Below, one piece after another: positions 8,750 through 59,040 of a stretch of 64,000 bases of DNA. The notes below the pieces were generated by a model. That model searched no databases. It was not told the DNA's origin and worked only from the letters and a program-made list of their open reading frames with translations. This stretch comes from Aquamicrobium defluvii (lineage in GTDB: Bacteria; Pseudomonadota; Alphaproteobacteria; Rhizobiales; Rhizobiaceae). Each line of letters starts with the position of its first letter. Position 1 is the stretch's first letter. The stretch is from NCBI RefSeq assembly GCF_004363725.1, contig NZ_SNZF01000009.1, positions 62,001 through 126,000 on the forward strand, given 5' to 3'. The translations under genes and the position numbers were made by a program.

Positions 8750-8753
8750 AAAA

Positions 8754-8775
8754 CCCGCCCCTTAAGCGGGGCGGG
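8754..8775 (-). terminator. intrinsic terminator for the minus-strand nlpD-side operon
   Basis: CCCGCCCC (8754-8761) pairs with GGGGCGGG (8768-8775) around a 6-base loop. Read on the minus strand the hairpin is followed directly by TTTTT, the classic rho-independent form. It lies between the convergent DUF815 and NlpD-like genes and should end transcription coming from the latter. Confidence 0.7.
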
Positions 8776-8829
8776 CCTGAAAAGCGGGCCGGACTGGAGG
8801 TCAGGCGGCCCGCGACCAGATTTTTCCAT

Positions 8830-44829: not shown

Positions 44830-44906
44830 GGTCCCGTAGCTCAGCCGGATAGAGCACCGGCCTTCTAAGCCGATGGTCGCAGGTTCGAATCCTGCCGGGA
44901 TCGCCA
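44830..44906 (+). tRNA. tRNA-Arg (anticodon TCT), integration target
   Basis: The acceptor GGTCCCG (44830-44836) pairs with CGGGATC, with one G-T pair. The anticodon loop is CTTCTAA with TCT, the T arm is GCAGG-TTCGAAT-CCTGC, and the discriminator G is followed by encoded CCA (44904-44906). Its last 19 bases are repeated exactly at 55899-55917, showing that the neighbouring element integrated here and restored the tRNA. Confidence 0.97.
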
Positions 44907-46022
44907 TTCTCTTATTTCTCCGTTGTTTTCCAAGGTGTTATCCTCGGTATTCTGACTAACAGGATTGCCGTTAGTCAATTCAGTGTCGAAGGCCTTGGCC
45001 GATTTGTCCATAGCAGATCGCGCCAGAAGCTTGCGTTGAGCCTCACGGCAGTAGCGCTCGACCTCTCGGATGTCGGTGTGGCCGGTGATCGACATGATCT
45101 CCAGGGCGGAGCATCCGGCTTCCGCCAGACGGCGGCAGGCGGCCTTGCGAAGACCATGAGGAGATGATCCCTCCGGAAGTCCTGCCTTCGCTGCCGCGCC
45201 CGAGATATAGGCCGAGAAGGCCTTCTCCGACCGTGCCTTCTCATTGCCTTTCGAGATGAAGGTCGCGGCCGATCGAGGGCACTTCTGGATGAAGCGCCGC
45301 AGGTCTGCATGGACCGGGATATGAAGCTCAGCACCGGTCTTCTTCGCCTTCACGACGATCAGATCGTCATGCAGGTTCGCCCAGCCGATTCGAACCGCGT
45401 CCGACCGTCGGAGGCCGGTGTGGAGAAGAATCTCCATCGCGACTCGCTGCGGCGTGTCCTCAGGCCACCGAGCCCGATAGGCAGCGATGTCGTGCTCCGT
45501 CCATGTGCGATGCCCATCGGTCTTGATCTTCGGCTTCTTGGCCGCCCTGACCGGATTGTCCGTTCGGAGCCCTGCTCCCACAGCATAGTCGAAGACCCCG
45601 ATCAGCCGCTTGCGGAAGTTGCTTGCCGCTGCCGGCGTGTCCGCCATCTCGTCGATCAGGTTGTTCACATGGTGCGTCTTGATGGTCGCAATCGGACCAT
45701 CACCATGCTTCTCCCGAAACCGCTCAAGGATGCCGCGATAGACCGCCTGCGTCGATGAGGCCAAGGCCCTGAACTCGGTCGATGCATAGTAACCGACTAT
45801 GGCCGCGCCGATCGTGCCGGGCGCGTTCCTCGTGGTCTTCTCCGCCTGCTCGGTAGCGTCCATCGCAGCATGATAGGCCTTCCAGAAGGCCTCCGATTTA
45901 TACGGGCCAGGTAGAGCAATACGGGGATGACCGGGGCGGCGAAGATAGATCCGCCGCTTCCCGGTCCTGTCCGTATACACGTTGACGTATTTCAACCGCT
46001 TCTCGCGCACGCCTTGTCCCAA
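44865..46022 (-). CDS. int: tyrosine-type site-specific integrase
   Basis: Up to 385 residues. The N-terminal arm- and core-binding region is followed by the catalytic domain with Arg in LHTGLRRSDAVRIGW (about 208-222), His-x-x-Arg in SPHGLRKAACRRLAEAG (about 287-303), His in ITGHTDIREVERYC and the Tyr just after. It would join the circular element to tRNA-Arg. The last residues (EWRSRQDSNLRPSA) are encoded by the tRNA-Arg gene itself, so the C-terminus comes from the attachment site. The start is uncertain: TTG at 46022, GTG at 46010 or a slightly later codon. It overlaps the HTH gene by about 31 bases. Confidence 0.92.
   Translation of the reverse strand: MGQGVREKRLKYVNVYTDRTGKRRIYLRRPGHPRIALPGPYKSEAFWKAYHAAMDATEQAEKTTRNAPGTIGAAIVGYYASTEFRALASSTQAVYRGILERFREKHGDGPIATIKTHHVNNLIDEMADTPAAASNFRKRLIGVFDYAVGAGLRTDNPVRAAKKPKIKTDGHRTWTEHDIAAYRARWPEDTPQRVAMEILLHTGLRRSDAVRIGWANLHDDLIVVKAKKTGAELHIPVHADLRRFIQKCPRSAATFISKGNEKARSEKAFSAYISGAAAKAGLPEGSSPHGLRKAACRRLAEAGCSALEIMSITGHTDIREVERYCREAQRKLLARSAMDKSAKAFDTELTNGNPVSQNTEDNTLENNGEIREWRSRQDSNLRPSA
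44888..44906. repeat. attL core of the satellite (19 bp)
   Basis: AATCCTGCCGGGATCGCCA forms the 3' end of tRNA-Arg, from the T arm through CCA. It is identical to 55899-55917. The integrase gene lies directly inside it and its last codons run into the tRNA. Confidence 0.9.
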
Positions 46023-46234
46023 TAGTTGTCGTTGCAGGCCACCATGGCCTTGCCGTCGAAAAGCAAATCTAGGTCGTGTCTATCATAAAGCTCAACTCCG
46101 AATAGCTGGCGCGGGGCCGGGATTGCCCCGGCCTGCCGCTGCTTGTCGAAATGACTGGGGCTGATCCCGAGATACGCCGCCGCCTGTGCCCTACGAAGGC
46201 CACGAGGAAGGATGTCACAGGCCGGCACGGTCAC
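45992..46234 (-). CDS. AlpA/excisionase-like helix-turn-helix protein
   Basis: About 80 residues. The core LRRAQAAAYLGISPSHFDKQRQAGAIPAPRQLFG (in pieces, about 13-46) is a MerR/AlpA-type HTH, followed by VELYDRHDLDLLFD. Small AlpA-like proteins act as excisionases or activators of satellite and prophage integrases, and this one directly precedes int. The start is a GTG at 46234 or at 46228; GGAGG sits three or nine bases upstream respectively, inside the end of the previous gene. It was partly hidden in a longer open frame. Confidence 0.78.
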   Translation of the reverse strand: MTVPACDILPRGLRRAQAAAYLGISPSHFDKQRQAGAIPAPRQLFGVELYDRHDLDLLFDGKAMVACNDNYWDKACARSG

Positions 46235-46754
46235 ATGCCTCCGACACCGCAGGATCAATACCCAGCGTCCGGTGCAGCCCGTCGACAGCCTCGTCGTCAT
46301 CGGCCTCGGGCTCGGGTCGGGTCCAGATTTCTGTGAAGCATTCGACTCCGCGCTTGCGGGCCTCGATCTCCAGCGCATCCTCGACCCGCTCCTCCAGCGG
46401 CACGCCCTCATCAGGCGACAGCTCCAGCTCGTGGAGCGGTATGAACTGGCGCAGCGGTTTCGGCTCGGGCGGCATCTTGCCCCCCATGGCCTCGTACTGC
46501 CGCACAGCCTTCTCTGCCACGATCTTGGCGAGAGGGGAATTGATCGCCCACTGCACCCCCGATCCCCGCGCGGTCGGTTTCGGGGAATGGGCGAGGTACT
46601 TCCCCTTCTGGTGCGCCAGAAGCGCACCGTTCACCTCCATCTGAAGCTCCGGGATGGTGATGTCGATGAACGCCATGGGCGTCCACTTCCGCGAGAAATC
46701 TGGCGAGCGCGGCGTCATCTTCACGCCCATCACGTTGACGGTCAGGTCGGTCAT
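46215..46754 (-). CDS. unknown satellite protein (179 aa)
   Basis: A protein of 179 residues that I do not recognise with confidence. The N-terminal half (about 25-100) looks like a compact beta-rich domain, with FIDITIPELQMEVNGALLAH followed by KGKYLAHSPKP. The C-terminal part is acidic and Glu-rich (PLEERVEDALEIEARKRG). It starts with ATGA overlapping the head-closure stop and ends inside the HTH gene start, so it belongs to the same operon. It may be structural or regulatory; no function should be assumed. Confidence 0.72.
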   Translation of the reverse strand: MTDLTVNVMGVKMTPRSPDFSRKWTPMAFIDITIPELQMEVNGALLAHQKGKYLAHSPKPTARGSGVQWAINSPLAKIVAEKAVRQYEAMGGKMPPEPKPLRQFIPLHELELSPDEGVPLEERVEDALEIEARKRGVECFTEIWTRPEPEADDDEAVDGLHRTLGIDPAVSEACDRAGL

Positions 46755-47098
46755 GCCGGAACTCCCGATTCCACGAGCAGGTTCACCCAAGCGCGCCGCT
46801 CATCAGGCTCGACGCTGCGGATATTGTACATTGTGCCGGTGCGGCCGTTCTTCGCCCTCCATGCAGGCGTCACATCGGCCATGGCAGGTTGCCAGCGCAT
46901 CGTGATCGCGATGGTCTGCGTCCCGGCGAGGCGGGCGGCCATCACCGTCTCGGTGCCGCGCAGGATCTGGATGCGGGCCGGCGCGGTGAAGGCGGTCTGC
47001 CATTCCTGAATGACGCCTCCATAGCCGTCATCGACTTCCACATAGTTCTGGATGTCGATCACCTCGCGAAGATCGCCAGCGGTGGTCAGTGCAGCCAT
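46751..47098 (-). CDS. phage head closure (head-tail joining) protein
   Basis: A protein of 115 residues. It has the pattern of the SPP1 gp16 / HK97-type head closure family: VIDIQNYVEVDDGYGGVIQEWQTAFTAPARIQILRGTET near the N-terminus, and YNIRSVEPDERRAWVNLLVE at the end. It would sit below the connector and form the docking surface for a tail. This is the last morphogenetic gene; no tail genes follow. It overlaps both neighbours by a few bases. Confidence 0.85.
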   Translation of the reverse strand: MAALTTAGDLREVIDIQNYVEVDDGYGGVIQEWQTAFTAPARIQILRGTETVMAARLAGTQTIAITMRWQPAMADVTPAWRAKNGRTGTMYNIRSVEPDERRAWVNLLVESGVPA

Positions 47099-47283
47099 TG
47101 GTTCGGCTCCTCTTCCTCGAAGAGTTTGTCGCGCAGGTTTCGGTACTGGCGCATGAACCGCGGATGCTCATCGTCGCGCATGTATCGCATCCAGCCGCAG
47201 CCTTCATCCTCAAGCCCGACCATTGCCCAGCCGGCCTCATCCATCGCGGCAAGCTGGCGTCTGATTTCAATGGCGCTCGTCAT
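47086..47283 (-). CDS. small satellite protein (65 aa), unknown
   Basis: A 65-residue acidic protein beginning MTSAIEIRRQLAAMDEAGWAMVGLEDEGCGW. It is not recognised. Its ATG overlaps the portal stop by four bases and its end overlaps the head-closure start by 13, so it is very likely translated as part of the head operon. A scaffolding-like or head-decoration role is possible but unsupported. Confidence 0.65.
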   Translation of the reverse strand: MTSAIEIRRQLAAMDEAGWAMVGLEDEGCGWMRYMRDDEHPRFMRQYRNLRDKLFEEEEPNQWLH

Positions 47284-48491
47284 GCCGCGTCCTCCAGCCT
47301 GCCTCGGTTATCGTTCGCCCCGACCAATCCCATGTTGAGGGGCTGGATGTACTGATCACCGTCCGCGCCGATCGATGACAGGTTTTCAAAGGCCCTGATC
47401 TCGTTGACGTTGAGCCATCCCCCCTCGCGGCCGACGCGGTAAGCCGCGTATCTGGTCGACAGGTCACCACGAAGCAGGCCCGCCAGATCATGTTCGATGA
47501 AGAACGCCTTCCGGCTTTCCGGGGTCAGCAAGGCAACGTTTAGCGACTGCTCGATGCGCTTCGCCATGGGCGCGAGGCATCGCGACACCAGCGCCCGGCT
47601 CTCTTCCGAGATGCTGGAGTAGTTCTGCCCGTCCACAATGCCGGCGACTGACGGCGGAACGCCGTAGACCCTTGCCACGTCCAGATTGGAAAGCTTGCGT
47701 GACTCAAGGAACTCGGCATCCCTGCTGCTCATGGCGATAGGCGACCATGTAGCGCCTCCGTCCAACACGATTGGATCATTTGCCTTCAACTGGCCAATGA
47801 ACCGAGCCCGGAACTTTTCGAGCGCATCGTCCTTACCCGGAGCGCCGAGCTTGTTCGGGAAGGTTAGGACACCGGAGGGGCGGAAGGCGTTCTCCGCAGC
47901 GCTCCCGGCTTGATCCTGTTGCGCCAGCGCCAGACCGAAGGCCGCCGCGGCGATCTGGATCGGGCTCATCCCGAGGATGCCGTCCTTGGTCCGATAACGC
48001 AGGTGAAGTACTTCCTCCTGAAGCAGCACATCGGTCCCGCCGTCTGGCAGAGCGTGCTTGTAGCGCAATCGGCCGTTCTTCAGAAGCTCGACCGTCACCG
48101 ATCCGGCCATGAGGGGATGCAGGGCGACAACCTGTCCGCGACCGTTCCGCTCAATCTTCGCGAAGCCGTTGCCGTAGGTCAGGACCGACGCCAGCAGCCA
48201 TTCGCGCGCCTCGAATGCGGTAAGCGTCGGCGCGGTCTGGTCATGCAGGACGGCATAGAGCGGATGGTCCGTCGCAGCCTCGCGGCCGCCGTTTTCGGTG
48301 CGCCGATAAAGCTTCAGCGGGACGCTGGCGAGGTTCTCCGCAATGACGCTGATGCACCGATGGGCGACGGCGTGGCCGCTGGCCTTCTCGATGTCGGCCC
48401 GCGCCTGCCAGCGCGCACCAAGGAACTCGCCAAGGAACGGGTCGTCTGACGCTATGCGCTGCTCTGCCTTTCCGAAGGGCCACCACTTCAT
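47280..48491 (-). CDS. phage portal protein (HK97 family)
   Basis: A protein of 403 residues. The HK97-type portal signature appears as AVAHRCISVIAENLASVPLKLYRRTENGGREAATDHPLYAVLHDQ (about 41-85), and later FRPSGVLTFPNK and GQNYSSISEESRALVSRCLAPMAKRIEQSLN. It would form the ring through which DNA enters the head. It is preceded by the protease gene with an ATGA overlap and followed by the 65-residue gene. Intact and of normal length. Confidence 0.93.
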   Translation of the reverse strand: MKWWPFGKAEQRIASDDPFLGEFLGARWQARADIEKASGHAVAHRCISVIAENLASVPLKLYRRTENGGREAATDHPLYAVLHDQTAPTLTAFEAREWLLASVLTYGNGFAKIERNGRGQVVALHPLMAGSVTVELLKNGRLRYKHALPDGGTDVLLQEEVLHLRYRTKDGILGMSPIQIAAAAFGLALAQQDQAGSAAENAFRPSGVLTFPNKLGAPGKDDALEKFRARFIGQLKANDPIVLDGGATWSPIAMSSRDAEFLESRKLSNLDVARVYGVPPSVAGIVDGQNYSSISEESRALVSRCLAPMAKRIEQSLNVALLTPESRKAFFIEHDLAGLLRGDLSTRYAAYRVGREGGWLNVNEIRAFENLSSIGADGDQYIQPLNMGLVGANDNRGRLEDAA

Positions 48492-49015
48492 TGCGCGGCC
48501 TCCAGTTCGAGTAGGGCAATGCGGCGATCAGCGTCCGTACGCTGCTGACGCGACCGGGCCTGCACGGTCGTTCCGCCATATGCCGGGAAGGACTGGACGA
48601 CACTGATCTCATGCAGGACGACGCTGCGCAGTTCGCGCTTGTCACCGCTCCACGCCTCGCCGCCGTCAGGCACGGTGAATGCGAAGCTGGCCCCGCCCAG
48701 ATCGCCACGAGAGGCAAGGGCGAGTATGTCCCGGCCGAGCGTGGTCTCTGGCAGATCGATTTCGAAGCGCAGGCCGCGCTCATCCTCATGGAGACGGAGG
48801 GTGCCGCTCTTGGTCCGGGCCAGCACCTTACCGGAATCATGGTCGACCAGCGCGAGCTTGTCTTTGCCGTCCGCCAGCGAGCCGGAGAACGCGCCCCTGC
48901 GGATCACCTCGTGGAAGTCCGCAATGCGGGTTTCTTGGTCGAAGACCGCGGCATAGCCGATCAGCTTTCGACCTTCTGCGCGGGTCTCGGTCGCCGCGCG
49001 TTTTTCGATGGTCAT
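48488..49015 (-). CDS. HK97 family prohead protease
   Basis: A protein of 175 residues. EGRKLIGYAAVFDQETRIADFHEVIRRGAF is the family N-terminus; the probable catalytic His is in LALVDHDSGKVLART (about 55-69) and the Ser in LGGASFAFTVPDGG (about 107-120). It would cleave the capsid scaffolding region during maturation. It overlaps both the connector and portal genes by four bases. In most HK97-type phages it precedes the capsid gene; here it follows it. Confidence 0.92.
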   Translation of the reverse strand: MTIEKRAATETRAEGRKLIGYAAVFDQETRIADFHEVIRRGAFSGSLADGKDKLALVDHDSGKVLARTKSGTLRLHEDERGLRFEIDLPETTLGRDILALASRGDLGGASFAFTVPDGGEAWSGDKRELRSVVLHEISVVQSFPAYGGTTVQARSRQQRTDADRRIALLELEAAQ

Positions 49016-49287
49016 AGATGGATCTCCCGATAGGGCGCTAAAAGGGCGTCAACGCCGAATTGAACGGCATGGCTCGGCTTCTCGCCGGCCGCATCGCGCG
49101 CGCTATACCAATGGCTGATTAGAAGCTTGACGGCATGGACCACGGCGGGTTGGGGCGGGCTATCAAAGCCCACCCCGATCGCACTCACATAGTCCATCGC
49201 CGCGTCGATGAGGCTTTCAATGTACGCATCGTCCGAGTCGAAAGTGACCCGGAGATGCGCCTTGGCCTCCGCAAGCGAAAGCGCCAT
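49012..49287 (-). CDS. head-tail connector protein (gp6-like)
   Basis: A protein of 91 residues. LAEAKAHLRVTFDSDDAYIESLIDAAMDYVSAIG (about 5-38) and VVHAVKLLISHWYSARDAAG are typical of the DNA-packaging/connector family of HK97 gp6. It forms a ring under the portal. It follows the capsid gene by three bases and overlaps the protease gene by four. Confidence 0.88.
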   Translation of the reverse strand: MALSLAEAKAHLRVTFDSDDAYIESLIDAAMDYVSAIGVGFDSPPQPAVVHAVKLLISHWYSARDAAGEKPSHAVQFGVDALLAPYREIHL

Positions 49288-49290
49288 GCG

Positions 49291-50451
49291 TTAGATAGCT
49301 TTCCACGCAAACGCTTCGTCGTGGCGCACCGCGACATCAGCGTCGAGGAACGCATGCAGCCAAAGCCCGCCCTTCGACGCGTCCTTGTAAGGGTTGGTCA
49401 AAATGTCGATGCCGCTCCAATACCCGACGAGAAGGTTCGACCACGCGCCGAAAATGAGCGGATGCGCGGCCGGCGATCCGGAGCCCGGAACCTGATTCGT
49501 AGAAACCACACGCTCGCCGTGGAACGTCTCCGCGATCGAAAGCGGCCGATTGCTATCGGCGTCGAACTTGATCTTCCGCGCGGCGTTGGTAACGGCCGGG
49601 TTCGTCAGGAAGCCCGTGGTGCCGGTCACGTCGTCGAGCGCGAGCGCGCCGATCAGGTCGGCCGCGATGTCCGAAAGCTCGGACTCTGACGTACCGTGCT
49701 CTGAGATCGCTTCGATGATGCCCTCGGGCTCATTAGCGCCGCCGCCCTGAATCGCGGCCGCGTCAAGCGCCTGCGCCAGAACGAATGCCAGGTCGTTCCG
49801 AAGGACGTTTTCGATCGCAACCGAGTTCTGCAGCACAAGACGGCGCGACATATACATCTCGCCGGAAACGGTTTTGGGCGACAGCGAAACCTTGTCGAAC
49901 GTCGAATCCGACGCCGTGGTCGCGCCGTCTTCGGCCACCCAATAGGCAGTCGGGCCAGCCGTCAGCTTCGGCAGGTCAAGGTTCCCGGTGAGTCCGGAGA
50001 TGATCGTGGCGCCAAGCTGCTGGATCGCCATCGTAGGACGAAGGCGATCGATCATGCCGCCCAAGTTCGTTGCGACGGTATTGCCGGCGGAGCCGCCCGT
50101 GGTCATTGCGCGCTGTTCGCCGAAGATCACGCTGGTCGGGATCATCACGCCGCGCACTTCCCGGCCCTTCGAAAGCTCCTGGTGAACTTCGCGCTCACGG
50201 CCGGTCAGGCCATCCGCGCCTTCGCGAAGTGCCTTGGTAACGCTGAACTCGCGGGTCTCCGCCTCGAAGCGCTGGTCAGGTTCGGCCTGCTCGGCGCGCT
50301 CAAATTCAGCCAGCGTTGCGGCGCGCTTGATGTCCCGGTCGAGCTTGCGGACTTCGGCCTCAAGGGCGTCGAAGGTTTCGGGGTTGTTGACAGCGGCCTT
50401 CATCTCTGCGATTTTGCCGGCGCGCTGCTCTTGAAGCTGATGAACGTTCAT
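49291..50451 (-). CDS. phage major capsid protein (HK97 family)
   Basis: A protein of 386 residues. Residues 1-110 are a charged coiled-coil scaffolding or delta region (LQEQRAGKIAEMKAAVNNPETFDALEAEVRKLDRDI in two stretches), to be removed by the prohead protease. The HK97 fold follows, with PTSVIFGEQRAM, LTAGPTAYWVAEDG, VSGEMYMSRRLVLQNS and a C-terminal VAVRHDEAFAWKAI. AAAGGAC lies seven bases before the ATG at 50451; the frame is open further upstream but is not coding-like. It is the first gene of the head operon after a terminator. Confidence 0.93.
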   Translation of the reverse strand: MNVHQLQEQRAGKIAEMKAAVNNPETFDALEAEVRKLDRDIKRAATLAEFERAEQAEPDQRFEAETREFSVTKALREGADGLTGREREVHQELSKGREVRGVMIPTSVIFGEQRAMTTGGSAGNTVATNLGGMIDRLRPTMAIQQLGATIISGLTGNLDLPKLTAGPTAYWVAEDGATTASDSTFDKVSLSPKTVSGEMYMSRRLVLQNSVAIENVLRNDLAFVLAQALDAAAIQGGGANEPEGIIEAISEHGTSESELSDIAADLIGALALDDVTGTTGFLTNPAVTNAARKIKFDADSNRPLSIAETFHGERVVSTNQVPGSGSPAAHPLIFGAWSNLLVGYWSGIDILTNPYKDASKGGLWLHAFLDADVAVRHDEAFAWKAI

Positions 50452-50904
50452 GTTTGTCCTTTCGAGACAGGTGGTAAAATTGGAGCCGGTTGCTTTCCAG
50501 GGCGATGCCGGCCCGTTGCTTTCCGCAGCTATTGCTGCGGGCTTCCTTCCGCACATGGCAGAAGAAACACGAATAGCCCGCACGGCAGATGCCGGCAGGC
50601 TGAAAACTCTAGCTATGTGGTGCGCCTCCCGTTGAAGCGCGGCCATGAAGGCCTTGATGCATTCCGGCTCCCCGTGCTGCCGGTTATTGTCCCGCAAATC
50701 TGCGGTGTTCTTCTGGCGGCCAATGCCGCGAATCAGTCGGAAAACCCGATCTGACAATAGGATCGCACAGCTTTGTGTCTATTTTATGGAAATCGCTTGA
50801 CTTTTCCATAAAAACATGAAGCTGCACCCCTCTTATATAGGGTGAGCAGCTTCAATATCGTCAAGTCCGGATATAAAAAATTTCAGGCAAGCTGCATTGC
50901 AACC
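50452..50904 (-). other. non-coding gap upstream of the capsid gene
   Basis: About 450 bases lie between the 85-residue gene and the capsid start. The part near 50905 contains a strong terminator, and the middle is G+C-rich with no convincing gene on either strand. The sequence near 50780-50880 is A+T-rich (including TTGAC at 50798-50802 and TATATA at 50834-50839). A promoter for the head operon should lie in this gap, but I cannot place it. Confidence 0.6.
50805..50853 (-). terminator. intrinsic terminator between early and head genes
   Basis: GAAGCTGC-ACCC (50818-50829) pairs with GGGT-GA-GCAGCTTC (50840-50853), giving 12 pairs with a two-base bulge. Read on the minus strand it is followed by ATGTTTTTATGG, a T-run. 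It should separate the replication/terminase transcript from the capsid-to-integrase transcript. Confidence 0.75.
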
Positions 50905-51162
50905 TTAGTCTGTGTCGTACCTTTCCCATTCACGCTTCAGGGTCTCGACCAGCGCCTTGACACGATACGCCTGCTCGGCAGCCAGATCCTCGAAGGTTTC
51001 GCAGAAGCCGTAAGGCGCGGCCTTCTTGACCACCGCGACATTTTTCTCGACCTCCTCTGAAAGCCAGCACAGGATGCGGACTGACTTTTCCAGCGAAGCA
51101 ATCGTGCCCTCTATCTCAAGCCATGAGGTCTTGTTGCTCGAACTCTGCGTCGTTTTTGCCAC
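50905..51162 (-). CDS. small satellite protein (85 aa), unknown
   Basis: An 85-residue protein starting with GTG (GTG GCA AAA ACG), preceded by GGGGAA six bases upstream. It is largely helical and charged (LEIEGTIASLEKSVRILCWLSEEVEKNVAVVKKA; EDLAAEQAYRVKALVETLKREWERYDTD) and may form a coiled coil. It lies between the terminase and capsid genes and ends about 50 bases before the terminator. A role as a small-terminase replacement or packaging regulator is imaginable, but there is no sequence match to support it. Confidence 0.6.
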   Translation of the reverse strand: MAKTTQSSSNKTSWLEIEGTIASLEKSVRILCWLSEEVEKNVAVVKKAAPYGFCETFEDLAAEQAYRVKALVETLKREWERYDTD

Positions 51163-51220
51163 CTTGTATTCCCCATATTGAGGTCGAGCACCATGCTCGA
51201 CCGAAAATCTCGATCGCCAT
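51116..51220 (-). CDS. possible 34-residue protein with a strong ribosome binding site
   Basis: ATG at 51220 is preceded by GAGGAG six bases upstream, the best ribosome binding site in this stretch. The frame encodes 34 residues (MAIEIFGRAWCSTSIWGIQG at the start) and stops at 51116. It overlaps the start of the 85-residue gene in another frame, so it may be a leader peptide coupled to it. It also contains the inverted repeat GGTCGAGCA/TGCTCGACC (51182-51202). Short and unsupported by homology. Confidence 0.3.
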   Translation of the reverse strand: MAIEIFGRAWCSTSIWGIQGGKNDAEFEQQDLMA

Positions 51221-51355
51221 GTGTTTCTCCTCAATGTGGTAGTGGCTGCGCGTGCTCGCGGATGGTGCGGCCGCGACGCAGTTGGCAACATACTTGATCG
51301 AGCCGAATCCGAAGTCAAGACCACGAGGAAGTTGAAACCTCCTCGTGGGTCTATT

Positions 51356-51571
51356 TTACCTACGGCGATCAGCCTCTTCCCTGAGCGCCGCAATCGCCAT
51401 CTGCACATTCGCGAGTTCAGCGGTTATCTGGTGCAATCTTGCCGGTTCCTTTTCCTTGACGCTCCGACCAGTCTGCACTCGAGATTCGTAGATCAGTTCG
51501 TCCACGAGATTTTCTCGACTAGCCTCCATCTTCGGGATGAACTCTAATATGTCGGTCTTGCTCGCTTCCAT
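51356..51571 (-). CDS. small satellite protein (71 aa), unknown
   Basis: A 71-residue charged, helical protein (MEASKTDILEFIPKMEASRE...; C-terminal HQITAELANVQMAIAALREEADRRR) that looks like a coiled coil. It begins 14 bases after the terminase stop, with AAGGGGG upstream in the terminase 3' end. It is not recognised. Its place right after the large terminase and before the capsid makes a packaging or scaffolding accessory role conceivable. Confidence 0.6.
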   Translation of the reverse strand: MEASKTDILEFIPKMEASRENLVDELIYESRVQTGRSVKEKEPARLHQITAELANVQMAIAALREEADRRR

Positions 51572-51585
51572 TTCTCAAGCCCCCT

Positions 51586-53211
51586 TCACGCCGCCAGCAA
51601 ACACGCCGGCAGTTCCTCCGGCTCATGTCGAGCCGCGATTGATTGAGCCATAGCAAGCGCGACAAGTCCATCTATACGACCCGCCGCCTTCGCCTTGTCG
51701 AGCTTGCGCGCGCCGGCCGCGTCTTTCGTGATCACTGCATTGGCGGCGCACATGGTCAGAACCGGGTTGCCTCCATGGCGCAGTTTCGCCTCCGCGACGG
51801 CCCGCTCCAGCGTGTCCACGGCGGGAGACATGTCCTTAAAGCCTTGGCCATGAGGAACAAGTTCCATAGCTGCGCCGATCCGGTCCAGTTCCCGGCGAAG
51901 GTCTTCGATGCGCCAGCGGTCATAGGCGACGGCCTGAATGTCGAACTGGGCTGCATCCTCGGCCATCTGCTCCGCCACGAAGCCGGGATCGATCGTGCTG
52001 CCCGGTATCAGGGTTATATGCCCCATCTGCGCCCACACGTCATAGGGAACTCGATCGGCCTCGGATTTCTCCATGATGCCGTTTTCCGGGAGGAAGAACC
52101 GCGGCAAGACGTGGATCGTCCCGTCGTCCATGGGGAAGACCAGAACCCATGCGGTCAGGTCGCGCGCTGCGCTCAGGTCCAGCCCGCCGAAGCATGGTCG
52201 ACCCTTCAGCACCTCTATGTCGAACTCGCCGCCGCAGGCCTCCCATTCGGCCTTCGCGATGAACCTGACGTGAGCGGCAACACGCTGGTTGAGAATCTTA
52301 TTGCGAAAGTCCTGCATCTTCGACGGAATCCGCTCGGCCTGCGCCGCCTGCCGGGCCACGTCTTCCTCCGATCGGAAGTCGCCCAATGCCGGATTCGCCT
52401 TCAGCCAGGTTTCGCGGTCCATCGGATCGTCGGTCTCCGGCGCTGTATATAATGTCAGGTGGAACGACGGATCGTCCACCTCGCCGGCCTGGACCTTCAG
52501 GCCATAATCGATCAGCGTCGAAAACACGTGGTTGTCGTCAGGCGCCTGCGTGCTGATCGCCACGAGAAGGGGATTATCCCGCGCGCCCATGGCGGAGTCC
52601 AAGGCGTCATATAGATCGCGTTTCGGCGCATAACCAAGCTCGTCCACGACCGTAAAGCTCGGGCTCAAGCCCAGCTTCGTCGTGGCGTCTGACGACAGGG
52701 CCGCGAAGATCGAGCCCTTGCCCTGTCCTTCCAGCACCTCGATCTCCTTGCGAAACCGGATGATATTGCACCGGGCATCAAGTTCGGGGTGCTGGCCGAT
52801 GATGGCGACCATCTCCGCGAACATCTTTCCTGCCTGGAAACGGTCATTCGCCGCCGCATAGCATTCCCCGCGCGGCTCGGCCTCCGGGCCGGCCAGATGG
52901 CATAGAGCCAGCCCAGCCGCGATTCCGGTCTTGCCGTTCTTCCGGGCCATCGACAGAACTGCTGTCCGGACGGGGCGGTTTCCATGCTCGTCTTCTCTAT
53001 ATACCGCCTCCAGAAACTCGCGCTGCCAATCCCGCACGATCATCTTCGTCCCGGCCATCTTTCCGGCCGTGACCGGAAGGTCTTCAAGGAAGGCTATGAC
53101 GCGCTCGACGCGAGACAGGCCCTCCGCTTCCCACGGCAAGGTTTCGCGCAGCTTTGGCGACAGGATGCCGCCCTTTCCCTTAGGCTTCGCGCCTGGTCCT
53201 CTCAGGCCCAT
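51586..53211 (-). CDS. phage terminase large subunit
   Basis: A protein of 541 residues. The ATPase Walker A is LSMARKNGKTGIAAGLALCHLAG (about 86-108), and Walker B is FTVVDELGYAPKRDLYDAL (about 186-204). The C-terminal nuclease lobe contains FGGLDLSAARDLTAWVLVFP (about 343-362). These define the Terminase_1 family, the motor that packs DNA into heads. The ATG directly abuts the HNH stop (TGAATG). No small-terminase gene is recognisable on either side, which is unusual. Confidence 0.93.
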   Translation of the reverse strand: MGLRGPGAKPKGKGGILSPKLRETLPWEAEGLSRVERVIAFLEDLPVTAGKMAGTKMIVRDWQREFLEAVYREDEHGNRPVRTAVLSMARKNGKTGIAAGLALCHLAGPEAEPRGECYAAANDRFQAGKMFAEMVAIIGQHPELDARCNIIRFRKEIEVLEGQGKGSIFAALSSDATTKLGLSPSFTVVDELGYAPKRDLYDALDSAMGARDNPLLVAISTQAPDDNHVFSTLIDYGLKVQAGEVDDPSFHLTLYTAPETDDPMDRETWLKANPALGDFRSEEDVARQAAQAERIPSKMQDFRNKILNQRVAAHVRFIAKAEWEACGGEFDIEVLKGRPCFGGLDLSAARDLTAWVLVFPMDDGTIHVLPRFFLPENGIMEKSEADRVPYDVWAQMGHITLIPGSTIDPGFVAEQMAEDAAQFDIQAVAYDRWRIEDLRRELDRIGAAMELVPHGQGFKDMSPAVDTLERAVAEAKLRHGGNPVLTMCAANAVITKDAAGARKLDKAKAAGRIDGLVALAMAQSIAARHEPEELPACLLAA

Positions 53212-53667
53212 TCAAGCCTCCCGATCTCTAGTTGCGAATGAGTCGCAAGAAACTAAGTCAATTCGCGACTCCCGCGCCGGTCCAGCGCCCGTCGATCCCA
53301 GTCCTGCGAAGGCCCCGGCCTCGTCGTCGCCACACAGCGCCACAGCGCGGCCCGCTGGCGCGTCCCAGCCTTCCGGGTCGATAGGGTTCCCATTCACATC
53401 AAAGCCCTTCAGTGCCCGCCTGAAGCCCGATGCATTGGGATGGTCGACCGCATTGGTCTTGATGTTGTGGCAGGCCGCGCACATGCTCATGAGCTGGTCG
53501 AGCGGCGGGAACGGATCCCCGCCTTTCTCGATCGCCACGATATGGTCGACGGTATCCGCCGGCTCCACGATCTCCCGGCGCAGGCAGGCCTCGCATAGCG
53601 GCTGGTCGACCAGCTTCGCTTTCCGCAGGCGCCGCCATGTGCTGGTGTTATAGGGCCACTTGCTCAT
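53212..53667 (-). CDS. HNH endonuclease
   Basis: A protein of 151 residues. The zinc-binding HNH core is LCEACLRREIVEPADTVDHIVAIEKGG (about 24-50) and MCAACHNIKT (about 59-68), followed by the conserved GFDVNGNPIDPEGWD tail. HNH proteins next to terminases assist packaging in HK97-type phages. The extra C-terminal 60 residues are low-complexity. Its ATG overlaps the primase stop by four bases. Confidence 0.9.
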   Translation of the reverse strand: MSKWPYNTSTWRRLRKAKLVDQPLCEACLRREIVEPADTVDHIVAIEKGGDPFPPLDQLMSMCAACHNIKTNAVDHPNASGFRRALKGFDVNGNPIDPEGWDAPAGRAVALCGDDEAGAFAGLGSTGAGPARESRIDLVSCDSFATRDREA

Positions 53668-55691
53668 GCTGACCTCCGCTGAAGAAAGGTCAGCTTGGCA
53701 GGGTCGAAGTCGTCGTGGGGGCCATGAGGGGAAGACGGCTCCGGCACCGGCTCCAACATTGTGCATGTCGATGAAGAACCGTGCTCGGAATACATGTTCC
53801 CCGACGACACGGCCTCACCATCCTTTGCCGCAGCATAGGCGTTGCCAACCGTTACCGGCTCGACATTCCGGGGGGCGGTAACACTGGTAACAGTGGTAAC
53901 ACTTCCCTCCTCCCGCTCTTCATCCTCATGGCCCTCATTCAAACTGTTACCAGTGTTACCACTGTTACCGGTGGTAGTGGTATCAGTGCCGGTAACAGTC
54001 AGATCTGGGTGAATATACTTGCCATAGCCCGATTTCTGCACTTCTCCGGCCGCTGCCATGGTGAAAAGCAGCTTCCGAACGTTACCGTCCTTCATGCCGG
54101 TAACAGTTGCGATAACACTTGGCGACATGGCCTCGCCCGCCTCCAACAGCGCCTGCAAGATGTTACCGCGTTCATCCGAACGGCGGACTTCGGTAACACT
54201 TCCCTGCACGATCCACTTCGCCGTGGTCTTGTCGAACGTCACCGCGCTCTCGATCTCCTCGATGTCGCGGCCTCGGCCGTACAAGGTGCAGCCCTGACTA
54301 TTGCGGTCGAGGACCAGCGTCGTATCGGCAGCACCGGACAGCCCGAGCGAGCCCGAGACGGTCTCGAACGGATCGCCGGACTCCGACTGCGACTTGCGGG
54401 TGTGGTGGACGATGACGATCGCCACGTTGCGCTTCGACGCGATCTCTTGCAGGTCTTTGATCGCGCGGTAGTCGCCATCGTATAGCTGCTCCTTCCCGCT
54501 GCGGACGGGTCGGAACTGCGCCAGCACGTCCACGATGACGAGACGGGCGCGCGGATGATCGTCCAGCCACTCCTCGATGTACCGGAGTCCACCATCATTC
54601 GCTCGGGGCCACTCGGTCGCATAGTGGAAGGCCTCGGGCCAGTCCTTCGTCACGAGGGCCGGCATCAGCTTCTTGATGCGGCTATGCAGGCGGCGCTGAT
54701 TGTCTTCGAGTGCCAGCATCAGGACATCACCCTGCTCGCACTCGATCCCGCCAAGGCAGGTTCCGCCACGGGCAACGGCAAGCGCCATTTCCATTACCAT
54801 CCAGCTTTTCCCGAGCTTGGGGCGGCCGGCGAGAAGCGTACAGCCTTCGGCGATATAGCCGGGGACCACATACTTGATCGGCGCGAAGGTCATGTTCCTG
54901 AGCGCAGCGGCTGTGCCAATGACCGGACGTTTCGGATCGGCCTTACTGGTCGCTCCGGCGACGTACGCGAGCAGATCGTCTTTGCCGTGGCCGAGATCCA
55001 GATAGTCGGACACGTCGCCCTTTTCAGGCAGCATCGGGAAGTGGACCGATCGCACCGAAGCGGCCGTGCCCTTCAGCGCGGCGTGGACCTGATCGGCATG
55101 TTTCCGGCCGGGCTCGTCGTTGTCCGCAAGGATGATGACGTTCTTGCCGTTGAACCAATGGTTCAGTTCCGGACGCCATTTTCCCGCTCCCTCTGGCGCG
55201 CTCGTGGCCACGAGACCGAGACCAGCGAGGCGATCTGCATCCTTCTCACCCTCAACGATGTAGACTGTATCGGCCGCGATCACTTCGGGCAGGCGGTAGG
55301 GAATGCGAAGCTGTTGTGCGCCCTTCACCCATGCGGAGCCGTTCCATGAGTGCTGATAGAACGACTTGCCTACGGGCCGGTGGACCTTGGTCACGCGCAA
55401 GTAGGGCTCGCCGTGCTCGTCACGATAGACGAACTGCGGATCGGCAGGACGTTCCACCCTCCCGGGCTTCCATGCCGGGAGACCCGCGGCCTGGCGCACA
55501 TAGTCACGGCAGGCAGCCGGATCGTCCTCAGCGAAGCTGTTGACCACGAAGCCTTCCGGGTTGCTGGGATCGTTCTTTACGGACAGCGAGCGGTCGTCTT
55601 TCCCGTGGCCGGGGCCGGGCACGAGGCAAGCATTGCCGCCGACCAGCATGTCACCATGCAGGGCGTGGCAGACAGTCTGTGCGATGTTCAT
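53664..55691 (-). CDS. TOPRIM primase / RepA-like helicase fusion
   Basis: A protein of 675 residues. The N-terminal PGPGHGKDDRSLSVKN suits a primase-type entry domain. A TOPRIM domain follows, with EGEKDADRLAGLG (Glu 148) and IILADNDEPG (Asp 190 and 192). Then comes a RecA-like helicase domain with the P-loop LLAGRPKLGKSW (about 286-297) and VIVHHTRKSQ. A winged-helix-like region (near 530-575) and a Thr/Gly/Asn-rich tail end the protein. It would start replication of the excised element. The tail is encoded by a dense set of GGTAACA-type repeats. It is coupled by ATGA overlaps to the genes on both sides. Confidence 0.9.
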   Translation of the reverse strand: MNIAQTVCHALHGDMLVGGNACLVPGPGHGKDDRSLSVKNDPSNPEGFVVNSFAEDDPAACRDYVRQAAGLPAWKPGRVERPADPQFVYRDEHGEPYLRVTKVHRPVGKSFYQHSWNGSAWVKGAQQLRIPYRLPEVIAADTVYIVEGEKDADRLAGLGLVATSAPEGAGKWRPELNHWFNGKNVIILADNDEPGRKHADQVHAALKGTAASVRSVHFPMLPEKGDVSDYLDLGHGKDDLLAYVAGATSKADPKRPVIGTAAALRNMTFAPIKYVVPGYIAEGCTLLAGRPKLGKSWMVMEMALAVARGGTCLGGIECEQGDVLMLALEDNQRRLHSRIKKLMPALVTKDWPEAFHYATEWPRANDGGLRYIEEWLDDHPRARLVIVDVLAQFRPVRSGKEQLYDGDYRAIKDLQEIASKRNVAIVIVHHTRKSQSESGDPFETVSGSLGLSGAADTTLVLDRNSQGCTLYGRGRDIEEIESAVTFDKTTAKWIVQGSVTEVRRSDERGNILQALLEAGEAMSPSVIATVTGMKDGNVRKLLFTMAAAGEVQKSGYGKYIHPDLTVTGTDTTTTGNSGNTGNSLNEGHEDEEREEGSVTTVTSVTAPRNVEPVTVGNAYAAAKDGEAVSSGNMYSEHGSSSTCTMLEPVPEPSSPHGPHDDFDPAKLTFLQRRSA
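53851..54200. repeat. GGTAACA-type repeat cluster, candidate iteron origin
   Basis: Three tandem 9-mers GGTAACA(C/G)T occupy 53877-53903, and three inverted copies A(C/G)TGTTACC lie at 53943-53969. Further copies or near-copies are at 53851-53856, 53991-53999, 54081-54086, 54099-54107, 54111-54119, 54161-54167 and 54192-54200. They lie in the 3' end of the primase gene, where satellite origins with iterons recognised by the replication protein are often found. All copies share one codon phase, so part of the signal could come from Val-Thr and Gly-Asn codon pairs. The GTT and GGT codons used are not the ones favoured around it. Confidence 0.5.
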
Positions 55692-55918
55692 GCTGCCACC
55701 TCTTGAGCCGAGGCAGCCGCTGCGCTATATGAAGCTGTGAAGACCTTCCCGAAGCCGTTCGCGATGCCAGTCGCGGCGGCTTTTCCTTTTGGTGATTCGC
55801 CACTGCGGTTAGCCGACAGGCGAAAAACGCTAAGCGATTCAATAGGACGGTTTGGGCAAATTAGTCGGTGTAACGAATTGATTTTGAAAGGATTATTCAA
55901 TCCTGCCGGGATCGCCAC
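55688..55918 (-). CDS. possible first gene of the satellite (up to 76 aa)
   Basis: An open frame ends in TGA overlapping the primase ATG (ATGA), which suggests coupled translation. Its last third (ESPKGKAAATGIANGFGKVF... to QEVAA) looks protein-like. The only early starts are a GTG within the attR repeat (55918) or a TTG a few codons later, so the gene would read out of the attachment site. It is not recognised and may be a leader peptide. Confidence 0.35.
   Translation of the reverse strand: MAIPAGLNNPFKINSLHRLICPNRPIESLSVFRLSANRSGESPKGKAAATGIANGFGKVFTASYSAAAASAQEVAA
55899..55917. repeat. attR core of the satellite (19 bp)
   Basis: AATCCTGCCGGGATCGCCA, identical to the end of tRNA-Arg at 44888-44906. 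There is no tRNA structure around it, so this is the displaced copy marking the right end of the element. Confidence 0.9.
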
Positions 55919-55958
55919 AGATCAAACATTTACATCGAGTTTCCGATAATTCTCATTA

Positions 55959-56007
55959 GAGCATTGGACCGAAAAGTGTATTCGGTTTTCGGATTATTCC
56001 GATGCTC
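55959..56007. repeat. palindromic intergenic repeat 1 (CCGAAAAGTG type)
   Basis: GAGCAT (55959-55964) pairs with ATGCTC (56002-56007), with ACCGAAAAGTG and CGGTTTTCGG between them forming an inner stem. This form (a GCAT arm, CCGAAAAGTG, then CGGTTTTCGG) is a common dispersed palindrome in Hyphomicrobiales genomes. It lies just outside attR. Confidence 0.6.
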
Positions 56008-56019
56008 AAACAAAATGTC

Positions 56020-56059
56020 AGAGCGTCCTTTGTGCGTCCGAAATGACGCACGGCGCTCT
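56020..56059. repeat. palindromic intergenic repeat 2 (AGAGCGTCC type)
   Basis: AGAGCG (56020-56025) pairs with CGCTCT (56054-56059), with an inner stem GTGCGT/ACGCAC. It resembles another dispersed rhizobial palindrome. The two repeats lie side by side in the gap between attR and the Cys-rich gene. Nothing else is seen in 55919-56146. Confidence 0.6.
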
Positions 56060-56146
56060 AACAGCCGCGCCGCGGTTTCGCATGCCTTGTCCGGACGCCT
56101 TTTCTCGCATAAGTAGCAGGAGGGGATTTATGGGGGGAGCCGCACC

Positions 56147-56344
56147 ATGCCGGTGTGCGGGACATGCGCCGGGCTTGGGCGCGTATTTCATTGCATTCGA
56201 TGGCCAGCCTGCGGCTGCCCGGACGGTACTGTTATAGAGGATTGCCCGGGAAAAACGGTCGTCTGCTCCGAATGCAATGGAACGGGAGAGGCCCGTTCCG
56301 CATTTCAATCTGATGAAGACCGGCAAAGGAAAGCGCAATGTTGA
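56147..56344 (+). CDS. Cys-rich small protein with DnaJ-type zinc motifs
   Basis: A 65-residue protein. CGTCAGLGR (about 4-12), CGCPDG and CSECNGTGEA (about 40-49) are CxxC-type repeats resembling the DnaJ zinc-binding modules. A GGGGGGAG element seven bases before the ATG supports translation. The function is unknown; it could bind zinc. It lies in the accessory patch right of attR and precedes the glycosyltransferases. Confidence 0.6.
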   Translation: MPVCGTCAGLGRVFHCIRWPACGCPDGTVIEDCPGKTVVCSECNGTGEARSAFQSDEDRQRKAQC

Positions 56345-56404
56345 CTGGGCATGGTCAGGTAGACTAGCAAAACACTTCTGCCGATACAGAAGCGGAGTGG
56401 AGTG

Positions 56405-57358
56405 ATGACGGCTAGGCGTAAGGTGCTTTTTATCGGCCCCGGGGTTAAGGCGACTGACCAAGTCTGGGGCGGCTCCGTTGCGACTTCTTACAATTTCCTT
56501 CGAAGCATGGCGCTTTCCAAGCGATATGAGGTACAACACATTGATCGAAGGCACATAAAAGGCCCTCGGGAATTGTACAGCGCATTGAGATCGACGGACT
56601 ACGATTTGCTGCACGTGGACGATGCCGGCAGCGGACTCCAGACATGTTATTCAGCTGGCGTTCTTCCCGATGTCATCGGCCCCATCTCCCGCGCTCCCAA
56701 CGGCGTGAAGGAATATAAGATCGGAGGTGAGGTCTGGCAATCGATCTATACTCCGGAATGGTTTTATCAGGCTGTTGTGATTCGCCTGAACGCCAACGAG
56801 GAGCGTGCGCCCGGCTATAAAGATAAATATCTTGGAATTTCACAAGGCGTTGACACGGAAAAATTACGGCCGGAGACCGACCCTAGGGAGAGGCGCTATA
56901 TTCTATGGGCGGGTGACGCCAATCGACCTGCCAAAAACTATCCGCTTATAGAAGAAATCATATCTATAACGGAACTACCCGAGCCTTATGAATTCAAAGT
57001 CATGTCAGGGTATTATGTTAAAGATTACTGGAATACTCTTGATGAGACAGCAATACTTATAAACACCAGCAAATATGAGAGTTTTTGCGCAGCCATATTC
57101 GAGGCGAAATCCAAAGGCGTAGCAACAATATACCGGGAAAAACTTCATAACGACCGTTTCCCGGATGGTCGCATACAAGTTCCCTATACCGCTGAAGCTT
57201 ATCGCGATGAAATCCTCAAGCTCCTGAGCGATCCTGAACTTCTCGAACAGGAAGGGCGCATGAGTCGCGGCTACTGCGTCGACAATGCTTCGTTCGAGGT
57301 CATGAAGAACTCATATGAGGCAGCATACGATATCGCCTTTGCGCGCAAATCGTCCTGA
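56405..57358 (+). CDS. glycosyltransferase-like protein (GT-B type)
   Basis: A protein of 317 residues. The N-terminus KVLFIGPGVKATDQVWGGSVATSYNFLRSMA resembles the acceptor side of GT4-like enzymes. The C-terminal half has GISQGVDTEKLRPETDPRERRYILWAGDANRPAKNYPL and ILINTSKYESFCAAIFEAKSKGV, the donor-binding Glu region of GT4 proteins. It may act on a surface polysaccharide. Base composition is visibly richer in A and T than in neighbouring core genes, suggesting transfer. A GTG three bases earlier is an alternative start. Confidence 0.75.
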   Translation: MTARRKVLFIGPGVKATDQVWGGSVATSYNFLRSMALSKRYEVQHIDRRHIKGPRELYSALRSTDYDLLHVDDAGSGLQTCYSAGVLPDVIGPISRAPNGVKEYKIGGEVWQSIYTPEWFYQAVVIRLNANEERAPGYKDKYLGISQGVDTEKLRPETDPRERRYILWAGDANRPAKNYPLIEEIISITELPEPYEFKVMSGYYVKDYWNTLDETAILINTSKYESFCAAIFEAKSKGVATIYREKLHNDRFPDGRIQVPYTAEAYRDEILKLLSDPELLEQEGRMSRGYCVDNASFEVMKNSYEAAYDIAFARKSS

Positions 57359-57501
57359 TTCCACCATTTTATTGCGTCGTGTTGTCCCCTTTCAATCTTG
57401 TTAGGGAAGTCAGAACGGGCACAGTCGCAAGGCTGGTTGCCCTGAATTTCCCATTCTTAGACAACCATAATATTCAGAAGTTGGCCAAGCGCGGTAGCAA
57501 G

Positions 57502-59040
57502 TTACTCTTGCGCCTCGCCTGCCGCGACAAAAAACTGGCCGGCAGCGTGGCGCGCACGGTACATTGTGCGGTACTTGCAGCGCGCTGCAGCCATAGTTCC
57601 TCCGTCCGTTATGCCGGTTCGCAGAGAACCGGTTAACGATGATTTTGACCAGTCGGCGAACAGAAGTGGTTTCGATATTCTCACGACCGAATCGCCGGCT
57701 ACCGCCCGCAATCTTGAAAGGAATTCTGAATCGGCTCCGAACGGGACCGTCTCGTAGAATCCCAGATTCTGCACCACCCAATCCTTCCTGTAGCAGAGGG
57801 AGGACTGATCCTCCTGAACATAGCCTCGCTGCCGCGGCCTGATGCCGATATCCTCATTGATACGGAGAAGATTGCCGATCGTCGCTATCGAATCCCCATT
57901 TTCCATCAAGGGCGTGACCAACTCCTCGATCTTGACGGGATGGGCCCAGTCGTCGGAATCGTTGCAGGTGAAGAACTTGCCCTTTGCTTCATGCAGGGCC
58001 CTGTTTCTGGCCCGATAGGTGCCGCCATTCTGCGGTTGGCGGAAAACCCGCACGCGAGGGTCGCGCCGTGCAATCAGCGTTGCAATTTCTACCGTGGTAT
58101 CACCGCTGCAGTCGTCAACTACCAAGATTTCGATGTTCTTGTAGGTTTGACGCAGAAGACTCTCGATTACCGGCCCGAGCGTCGCCGCCGAATTGAAGGT
58201 CGACATGGCTATGCTCACCAGCGGGCCGGTCGGGAACCGTTTGTCGGCGGCAGAGGTCAGGTTCGTAACAGATAAGGCCCTGTCCTCGCTTTTCAGACCT
58301 ATCTCCGACAACCCGAGCATTGCCAGAGCCCTGTTGAAATCTGCCAGTTGCCCAGCGAAATCTCCGCGCCGCAATCTCAGATTCGACCAGAAGAAGAACA
58401 AGTCCGGCGACACCGAGGAACCTCGTGATTTCAGGCCATGCCTCAGACATGCCTCCGCCCCCAGATAATTCAACGCCGTATTGTTGGCGAATATCTCTTC
58501 CTTCAGGGTCATCTTGAATTTTGTTTCGCCGGCAATGTGATCGAGGATCGATCCAAGCAGGTGTTTGTTGTCGAGAAGATATGCCTCGCCCAGCATCCTT
58601 AAGAGGGAGCGCTGATCAAATGCACCCAGAATCAGGGTATCCTGAGCGAACTCCCTCGCTTCCTTGAATTTTCCGACCAGAAGCAGCGCTATGAAATAGT
58701 CCAGCCGGAAGGTGGGATGCAGCCAAAGGCGCGTTGGGATTTGCGACGATGCGGCAAGGAGCGCCTCGGGCTCACCGGTTTCCAGGCACTCCTTGGCAAA
58801 TCGACGGTATTGCAGGATTTCGGACGGCTCTGTCTTCCTCGTCGGGGGCGCATATGCGGGATGTGGGTCCGCATAACCCGCGCTGTCGCCACCCGGCCGT
58901 TCGCCGAACCGACGGATGTAATACTCGTCATATGTGGCGAAGCCTGAAACCGTAGTGTGATTGACGCTTTTCCGAAGCGAATACGACAGGCGTGGCGGCA
59001 GATTTGCGTTGATACGTTGCCAGAGGGATAGCTTCGCCAA
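57502..59040 (-). CDS. family 2 glycosyltransferase with a long N-terminal region
   Basis: A protein of 512 residues. Residues 1-270 are helical and repeat-like, with no clear match. The GT2 (GT-A) domain begins about 272 with PLVSIAMSTFNSAATLGPVIESLLRQTY, then EILVVDDCSGDTT (Asp 309/310) and FTCNDSDDWAHPVK (the DxD-like site, about 362-375). GT2 enzymes build polysaccharides or glycosylate surface structures. It is convergent with the GT-B gene, forming a small two-gene cluster between the satellite and the hdaA block. Confidence 0.85.
   Translation of the reverse strand: MAKLSLWQRINANLPPRLSYSLRKSVNHTTVSGFATYDEYYIRRFGERPGGDSAGYADPHPAYAPPTRKTEPSEILQYRRFAKECLETGEPEALLAASSQIPTRLWLHPTFRLDYFIALLLVGKFKEAREFAQDTLILGAFDQRSLLRMLGEAYLLDNKHLLGSILDHIAGETKFKMTLKEEIFANNTALNYLGAEACLRHGLKSRGSSVSPDLFFFWSNLRLRRGDFAGQLADFNRALAMLGLSEIGLKSEDRALSVTNLTSAADKRFPTGPLVSIAMSTFNSAATLGPVIESLLRQTYKNIEILVVDDCSGDTTVEIATLIARRDPRVRVFRQPQNGGTYRARNRALHEAKGKFFTCNDSDDWAHPVKIEELVTPLMENGDSIATIGNLLRINEDIGIRPRQRGYVQEDQSSLCYRKDWVVQNLGFYETVPFGADSEFLSRLRAVAGDSVVRISKPLLFADWSKSSLTGSLRTGITDGGTMAAARCKYRTMYRARHAAGQFFVAAGEAQE

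Follow-up and report, generated by a model that had tools for sequence, protein, structure and literature searches.

The closest described systems to the element reported here are the capsid-forming phage-inducible chromosomal islands (cf-PICIs), recognisable by an integrase with a specific attachment (att) site, an AlpA-type regulator, a replication gene with an iteron origin on its 3′ side, an HNH protein with the large terminase (TerL), a small terminase, and their own capsid, protease, portal, and head-tail connectors, without tail or lysis genes. Their att site is one that temperate phages do not use, and a helper phage mobilises them in heads of their own fitted with helper tails. They occur mainly in Enterobacteriaceae, Pasteurella, Morganellaceae, and several Firmicute groups (PMC10803314) and are listed with a small terminase (PMC10690885). 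We analysed a 64,000-nucleotide window of Aquamicrobium defluvii (contig NZ_SNZF01000009.1, positions 62,001 to 126,000), which holds an integrated element of 11,030 bp (44888-55917; coordinates follow window numbering). This element is very probably a capsid-forming phage satellite of Alphaproteobacteria. Strict membership in the cf-PICIs, as first claimed, is not supported: no separate small terminase was recognised, and the capsid is not close kin of that of the only cf-PICI compared. The element is best classed as a similar kind of satellite from a new and probably independent lineage.

The original prediction had named integrase, primase/helicase, HNH, TerL, capsid, protease, portal, connector, and head-closure genes, and profile searches with Pfam and PHROGs recovered all of them (Table 1); the proposed AlpA-like helix-turn-helix (HTH) gene gave a weak match only. 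No tail, lysis, or repressor family was matched in the window element by the same profiles, as predicted, and tail probes that matched all four control prophages found nothing in it. All named genes lie on the − strand, which was also foreseen. However, the four-base overlaps described for most genes occur at four junctions only (portal/protease, protease/connector, orf65/portal, and the leader open reading frame (ORF)/primase); the remaining junctions abut, overlap by other lengths, or are spaced, with about 1.1 kb between TerL and capsid.

We compared the element with the cf-PICI of Escherichia coli O157 EDL933, which we take to be EcCIEDL933 by the genes it contains, including one for PerC (compare PMC11773190). 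Both carry integrase, HTH (a weak match in the window element), primase, HNH, TerL, capsid, protease, portal, head closure, and adaptor genes on one strand, with the order capsid-protease-portal and, in EDL933, no annotated tail or lysis genes. The EDL933 element spans 14.4 kb from first to last coding sequence, has a P27 small terminase, and places its packaging genes last, whereas the window element has 11.0 kb, HNH-TerL ahead of the head block, and no separate small terminase. Identities between them were 30% for TerL, 34% for portal, and 39% for protease, and the capsids matched over 97 residues only. HK97, the 16-3 group, and Mesorhizobium phage vB_MseS-P1 share homologous TerL, portal, protease, and neck proteins with the element, but these HK97-type phages and rhizobial siphophages have tail genes; moreover, HK97 and P1 follow the order TerL-portal-protease-capsid, and in the window element the capsid precedes protease and portal.

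Two further satellite types share part of this makeup. PICIs also integrate, are transcribed one way in Gram-negative hosts, and have paired iterons 3′ of the replication gene, but those characterised in the cited part of PMC6092414 are packaged in particles of helper phage proteins. The Streptomyces-phage satellites Mulch and Flayer likewise encode a capsid and packaging functions but cannot do without a helper; they differ –by description in the cited part of PMC10690885, not by sequence– in having no primase, virulent helpers, and direct terminal repeats.

The claim of perfect 19-bp direct repeats in tRNA-Arg was borne out: the left repeat is the 3′ end of a tRNA-Arg(TCT) gene (44830-44906), and the integrase stop codon falls inside this gene, past the repeat. 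The element has its own integrase and a specific att site. The insertion is clean, because in another species of the genus (G013) the unoccupied site is found and the joined flanks align straight across at 96%; the only gap is a 104-bp repeat (55957-56060) that has several copies in the host genome and is missing at the same place, on the right side, in G013. The GC content of the element equals that of the window (61.4%), and an Rfam scan of the window matched tRNA only.

Relatives of the element form a family of their own. Searching IMG/VR with the capsid retrieved 37 loci, 28 of them (one being the window element itself) at 60-100% identity over most of the capsid length and another, L074, at 97% over half its length; these 29 contigs measured 4.1-12.4 kb, bar one of 17 kb, and the other eight loci were phage-like (31-35% identity). 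A genome scan gave 48 loci, 46 of which were satellites or satellite pieces, from hosts titled Alphaproteobacteria (one only 'Proteobacteria bacterium'), mostly Hyphomicrobiales and Rhodobacterales. With TerL at ≥ 58% identity, nine of 397 genomes of the order (its own included) were positive; as a count of satellites, nine is a minimum, since some satellite TerLs fall as low as 44-48%. Four of the nine could be read through to the capsid and were satellites (L159-L162); three other TerLs at 44-48% (tblastn) belonged to phages, with TerL adjoining the portal (L165-L167). A literature search by title and abstract opening found nothing on such elements in rhizobia or Rhodobacterales, and the family is little noticed so far.

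We compared 49 elements, of which 46 are distinct (L058/L083, L063/L089, and L065/L088 are the same elements from two collections). The order HNH-TerL-capsid-(adaptor)-protease-portal-(head closure) was kept in 46 of the 49, across many genera; the exceptions were L112 and L124, with TerL unrecognised, and L085, with HNH elsewhere. Thirty elements are bounded by repeats, the window one included, and measure 9,526-11,541 bp (median 10,735). Among the 29 relatives in this set, 24 have a recognised tRNA gene at the site (Arg, Ser, Lys, Thr, Glu, Phe, Val, Gly, or Leu), and in six the repeats are 14-15 bp long (L087, L089, L091, L094, L103, and L111). Rhodobacterales members with repeats are the smallest, at 9.5-9.9 kb, except L121 (11.2 kb). 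The original view of a satellite-like element in a Hyphomicrobiales host, with its own head and without a tail and in a family of its own, is supported.

The head genes are under purifying selection, and the values do not fit decay. The median ratio of nonsynonymous to synonymous substitution rates (dN/dS) was 0.08 for TerL (112 pairs), 0.10 for capsid (17), 0.11 for protease (49), 0.09 for portal (44), 0.16 for adaptor (13), 0.13 for head closure (6), 0.19 for HNH (19), and 0.14 for primase (7); these are rough figures, with many pairs near synonymous saturation.

At the level of ancestry, the capsid tree placed 67 of 67 satellites in one clade (Shimodaira-Hasegawa-like approximate likelihood ratio test, SH-aLRT, 98), with the 15 phages and the EDL933 cf-PICI outside it. 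Judged by this protein, the family is a single lineage, distinct from the one E. coli cf-PICI compared. In the TerL tree, 56 of 60 satellites formed one clade (SH-aLRT 97), inside a larger group in which HK97 and rhizobial prophages also fall. The trees exclude proteins covering < 60% of the window gene. L105 is absent from the capsid tree, leaving 67 of 68 satellites, and L056 from the portal tree, leaving 65 of 66; the trees also contain the duplicated rows L116/L159, L119/L161, and L120/L162. EDL933 sits on a long branch in the capsid, TerL, and portal trees. A separate capture of phage head genes is the simplest reading; one published cf-PICI was compared, and kinship with other published cf-PICI clades is possible.

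Inside the 3′ end of the primase gene, GGTAAC (53877, 53886, and 53895) faces GTTACC (53946, 53955, and 53964). As described in the cited part of PMC6092414, PICI origins consist of two iteron sets with an AT-rich spacer between them and lie immediately 3′ of the replication gene; the spacer in the window element has 54% GC and is not clearly AT-rich. L084 and L086 show the layout of the window element with one step of 8 bp, and their primases have nearly 80% identity to the window primase. Across the family, a 9-mer repeated at least four times within 300 bp was present in 21 of the 49 elements (19 distinct), with a motif that varies between element groups; 20 of the 21 arrays lie within 1.3 kb upstream of HNH, where position alone predicts 2.8, and none of 147 block-shuffled elements reached four copies. 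The array is likely the origin of replication, as in PICIs.

For packaging, the original prediction saw no small-terminase gene, and no separate one was recognised by Pfam or PHROGs in the window element. The sole small-terminase label fell on the HNH protein (phrog_4581, E 5e-10), over its HNH region; therefore, this protein may be an unusual small terminase. It stands close to TerL in most of the family: the median distance was −1 bp in 47 elements, and it was < 240 bp in 44 of them. In many relatives, the capsid gene is directly preceded by a divergent ORF for a DNA-binding protein (of 98 ORFs scanned, seven matched MerR_1). Such a protein might regulate late genes or take over packaging-site recognition; none was seen in the window element, and a winged HTH profile built for this slot gene gained nothing past its six seeds.

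This TerL-capsid interval is a variable slot, filled in relatives by regulator-like ORFs or, in at least four, tail genes. In 16 of the 49 elements it holds an XRE-like HTH ORF on the opposite strand (e.g., L108, 8234-8698, −), a candidate repressor that is not in the window element.

Regarding the tail, a satellite that borrows tails would be expected to have a neck resembling that of its helpers. Among the recognised head proteins, head closure varied most across the 27 nearest elements, with a median pairwise identity of 0.50 compared to 0.55 for adaptor, 0.67 for capsid, and 0.72 for portal. It matched 18 phage records, 14 of them alphaproteobacterial phages; among the matches listed, the best phage records for TerL were HK97-type coliphages, and those for portal mostly gut and Firmicute phages. 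Against Mesorhizobium phage P1, head closure was the most similar window protein (37%, portal 30%, TerL 26%). As a yardstick, the EDL933 cf-PICI compared with HK97 gave 47% for head closure, 27% for TerL, 26% for portal, and an unmatched capsid, and in the head-closure tree EDL933 joins HK97 (support 91) while the satellites do not. Phages HK106 and HK446 are HK97-like. Both are reported as helpers of EcCIEDL933 in the cited part of PMC11389934, where these helpers are noted as not native to its strain. The head-closure matches hint at alphaproteobacterial phages as tail donors, although the docking argument is soft, and we predict helpers among siphophages of the 16-3, RHph_Y3_1, or vB_MseS-P1 type.

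Several explanations compete for the same genes. A decaying prophage remnant, stripped of tail and lysis genes, would also show ordinary HK97-type head genes and a TerL 45% identical to that of HK97. It was to be betrayed by relatives continuing into tail and lysis operons or by broken head genes, and neither was seen: no repeat-bounded relative runs on into such an operon, the frames are open, and selection is not relaxed. Because the compact gene set and order recur in 46 of 49 elements from many genera, sizes stay within 9.5-11.5 kb, and the median dN/dS is 0.08-0.16 from TerL to head closure, we rejected decay; the capsid lying before protease and portal, unlike in HK97 and P1, and the retained group-specific iterons also argue against a remnant, which we consider very unlikely. 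A true member of the cf-PICI family of Enterobacteria and Firmicutes, living in Alphaproteobacteria, is unlikely. The parts, the capsid-protease-portal order of EDL933, a similar size class, and the iterons at the primase 3′ end, as for PICIs (PMC6092414, in its cited part), favour it. Nevertheless, TerL has 30% identity to EDL933 and 45% to HK97, no separate small terminase was recognised, and the capsid clade excludes EDL933 –the only cf-PICI compared, on long branches that make the deep placement unsure.

The host genome also holds a cluster like that of a gene transfer agent (GTA) on contig C5 (about 43.7-57 kb; L136 and L137), which encodes a large tail protein besides head closure, protease, and portal. 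This brings up a GTA-like or domesticated head module serving the host. GTAs occupy a fixed host locus without an integrase or replication module, whereas the window element has an integrase, att repeats, a primase, and an origin-like array at a site that is empty in G013, and only its protease and head closure matched the C5 cluster, weakly. We rejected this explanation on the integrase, att repeats, and primase, and regard it as the least probable of all. Alternatively, satellite heads might take their tails from the C5 cluster instead of from a phage. That cluster has the sole other PF05521 gene of the genome, and some tail genes bear a GTA-like annotation in several phages of rhizobia and Rhodobacter; yet in the head-closure tree the GTA protein groups with HK97 on a long branch that is separate from the satellites, and this source of tails seems highly improbable.

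Reading the element as a capsid-forming satellite also has points against it. One is that no separate small terminase was recognised. Four satellite TerL rows (three distinct) were nearer prophages; therefore, TerL has been exchanged. One satellite, L112, judged by a long branch, groups with phages in the portal tree. The best head-closure E-value (3e-16) came from a Nostoc phage, the head-closure tree is weakly supported at many forks, and Rhodobacterales members are mostly without a recognised head closure. Within the order, TerLs of prophages are up to about 50% identical to the window one; therefore, TerL is likewise close to phages of related hosts, and the docking contrast is limited. 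The tailed helper prophage sought in the same genome did not materialise: no prophage with a matching neck was found in it, PF05521 being present only in the satellite and the GTA-like cluster, and neither sheath PF04984 nor the PF10145 tail protein was present. A tailed prophage lies on contig C31 (45 kb; L143 and L144), with a TerL of phrog_15, a capsid-protease fusion, and tail proteins, and we rejected it as helper, as it has no head or neck similarity to the satellite.

In addition, at least four of the 49 elements carry one lone tail gene. In L085 (9231-9677), L091 (9277-9729), and L066 (7854-8300), neighbours in the capsid tree, it encodes a tail-tube protein (major-tail PHROGs and PF06199, best E 4e-16) and lies between TerL and capsid. 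In L112 (Rhizobium sp. Root274), whose TerL is unrecognised, it is a tape measure upstream of the capsid (6554-9034; PF06791, E 2e-15; 52% identity to phage P1 over 126 residues), with two small overlapping ORFs before it. Four is a minimum: the rescan covered 96 of 212 ORFs re-chosen by codon usage, plus two window ORFs, and the tail-probe search covered the genome loci but not the IMG/VR elements. The codon-usage choice dropped real genes too (window HNH and AlpA). The products of these lone genes may rebuild the tail taken from the helper or act against the helper itself; blocking of tail assembly is described for other satellite and prophage systems in the cited part of PMC11364771.

Taking the element as a capsid-forming satellite, a tailed helper phage would trigger excision, with the AlpA-like protein as switch or excisionase, and the excised circle would replicate from the iteron origin. 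The satellite TerL and HNH proteins would cut the DNA and package it into the satellite's own small heads, the packaging site being recognised by HNH, by the helper, or by a protein that escaped recognition here. The head closure protein would then dock tails from a siphophage that infects related hosts, and lysis of the cell would fall to the helper. A wider proposal –that satellites of Hyphomicrobiales and Rhodobacterales form an independent lineage with head genes taken from an HK97-type phage and no conventional small terminase, in which neck changes fit helpers and the lone tail genes of some members may rebuild or sabotage the tail– is tentative and falls somewhat short of probable.

Table 1. 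Positions of the features of the satellite element in the window, and of the cf-PICI used for comparison.
Feature	Position	Strand	Basis or remark
att repeat	44888-44906		in tRNA-Arg(TCT) 3′ end; 19-bp direct repeat, G013 empty site
Tyrosine integrase	44865-46022	−	PF00589, E 4.6e-22; phrog_1
AlpA/excisionase-like HTH, weak match	45992-46222	−	phrog_25900, E 1.9e-7; PF12728 under cut-off
SpoVG-like protein orf191	46215-46790	−	AlphaFold pLDDT 79; no Pfam/PHROG match
Head closure protein (Hc1), candidate tail-docking protein	46751-47098	−	PF05521, E 5e-21
orf65, small protein	47086-47283	−	found in 6 of 49 elements
Portal	47280-48491	−	PF04860, E 2e-96
Prohead protease S78	48488-49015	−	PF04586, E 6e-40
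Head-tail adaptor Ad1 (gp6-like)	49012-49287	−	PF05135, E 9e-12; phrog_40
Major capsid protein, HK97 fold	49291-50451	−	PF05065, phrog_617; sequence alignment
Variable slot, TerL-capsid interval	50452-51585	−	orf71 51356-51571; 85-aa ORF 50905-51162; about 450 bp without convincing gene
Large terminase (TerL)	51586-53211	−	PF20441, PF03354 (ATPase + nuclease); 45% identity to HK97 TerL
HNH endonuclease, directly before TerL	53212-53766	−	PF01844, E 1e-7
Primase-helicase (Toprim-like + AAA_25)	53664-55691	−	PF13481, E 5e-29; phrog_239
Origin-like iterons	53877-53969		3× GGTAAC facing 3× GTTACC, 9-bp steps
Second att repeat	55899-55917		perfect 19-bp direct repeat
E. coli O157 EDL933 cf-PICI	NZ_CP008957, 1680329-1694760		

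Some gene boundaries allow more than one start. The capsid ORF is open up to 50757 and its conserved part begins at the ATG at 50451, and a later ATG at about 53670 is possible for HNH. The AlpA-like HTH has homologues in 13 of the 49 elements. For orf191, the top five PDB matches of the predicted fold were all SpoVG (Foldseek probability 0.97-1.00, E 0.03-0.09, none < 0.001).

Beside the att site, GC falls to 53-54% over 56000-59000, where a glycosyltransferase-like ORF was noted by eye; this stretch is possibly a second island. GTA-type head-closure genes lie a few kilobases outside the satellites in L092 (19437-20800, plus tail genes) and L128 (21066-21245). Identical contig ends were found in one of 40 contigs checked, L124 (1-10255, Methylorubrum suomiense), with 111 bp that would close a circle of about 10.1 kb; the contig encodes capsid, protease, portal, and ParA. 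We rejected it as an excised satellite circle on its ParA, the lack of a recognised TerL, and its plasmid-like character.

If these satellites are a separate alphaproteobacterial lineage, the strategy of keeping the head and borrowing the tail would have evolved more than once, and comparison could test on which neck protein tail compatibility depends and what stands in for the small terminase. Given the lone tail genes, one may also ask whether satellites reshape the tails they borrow. By name, the host genera include legume symbionts and marine bacteria.

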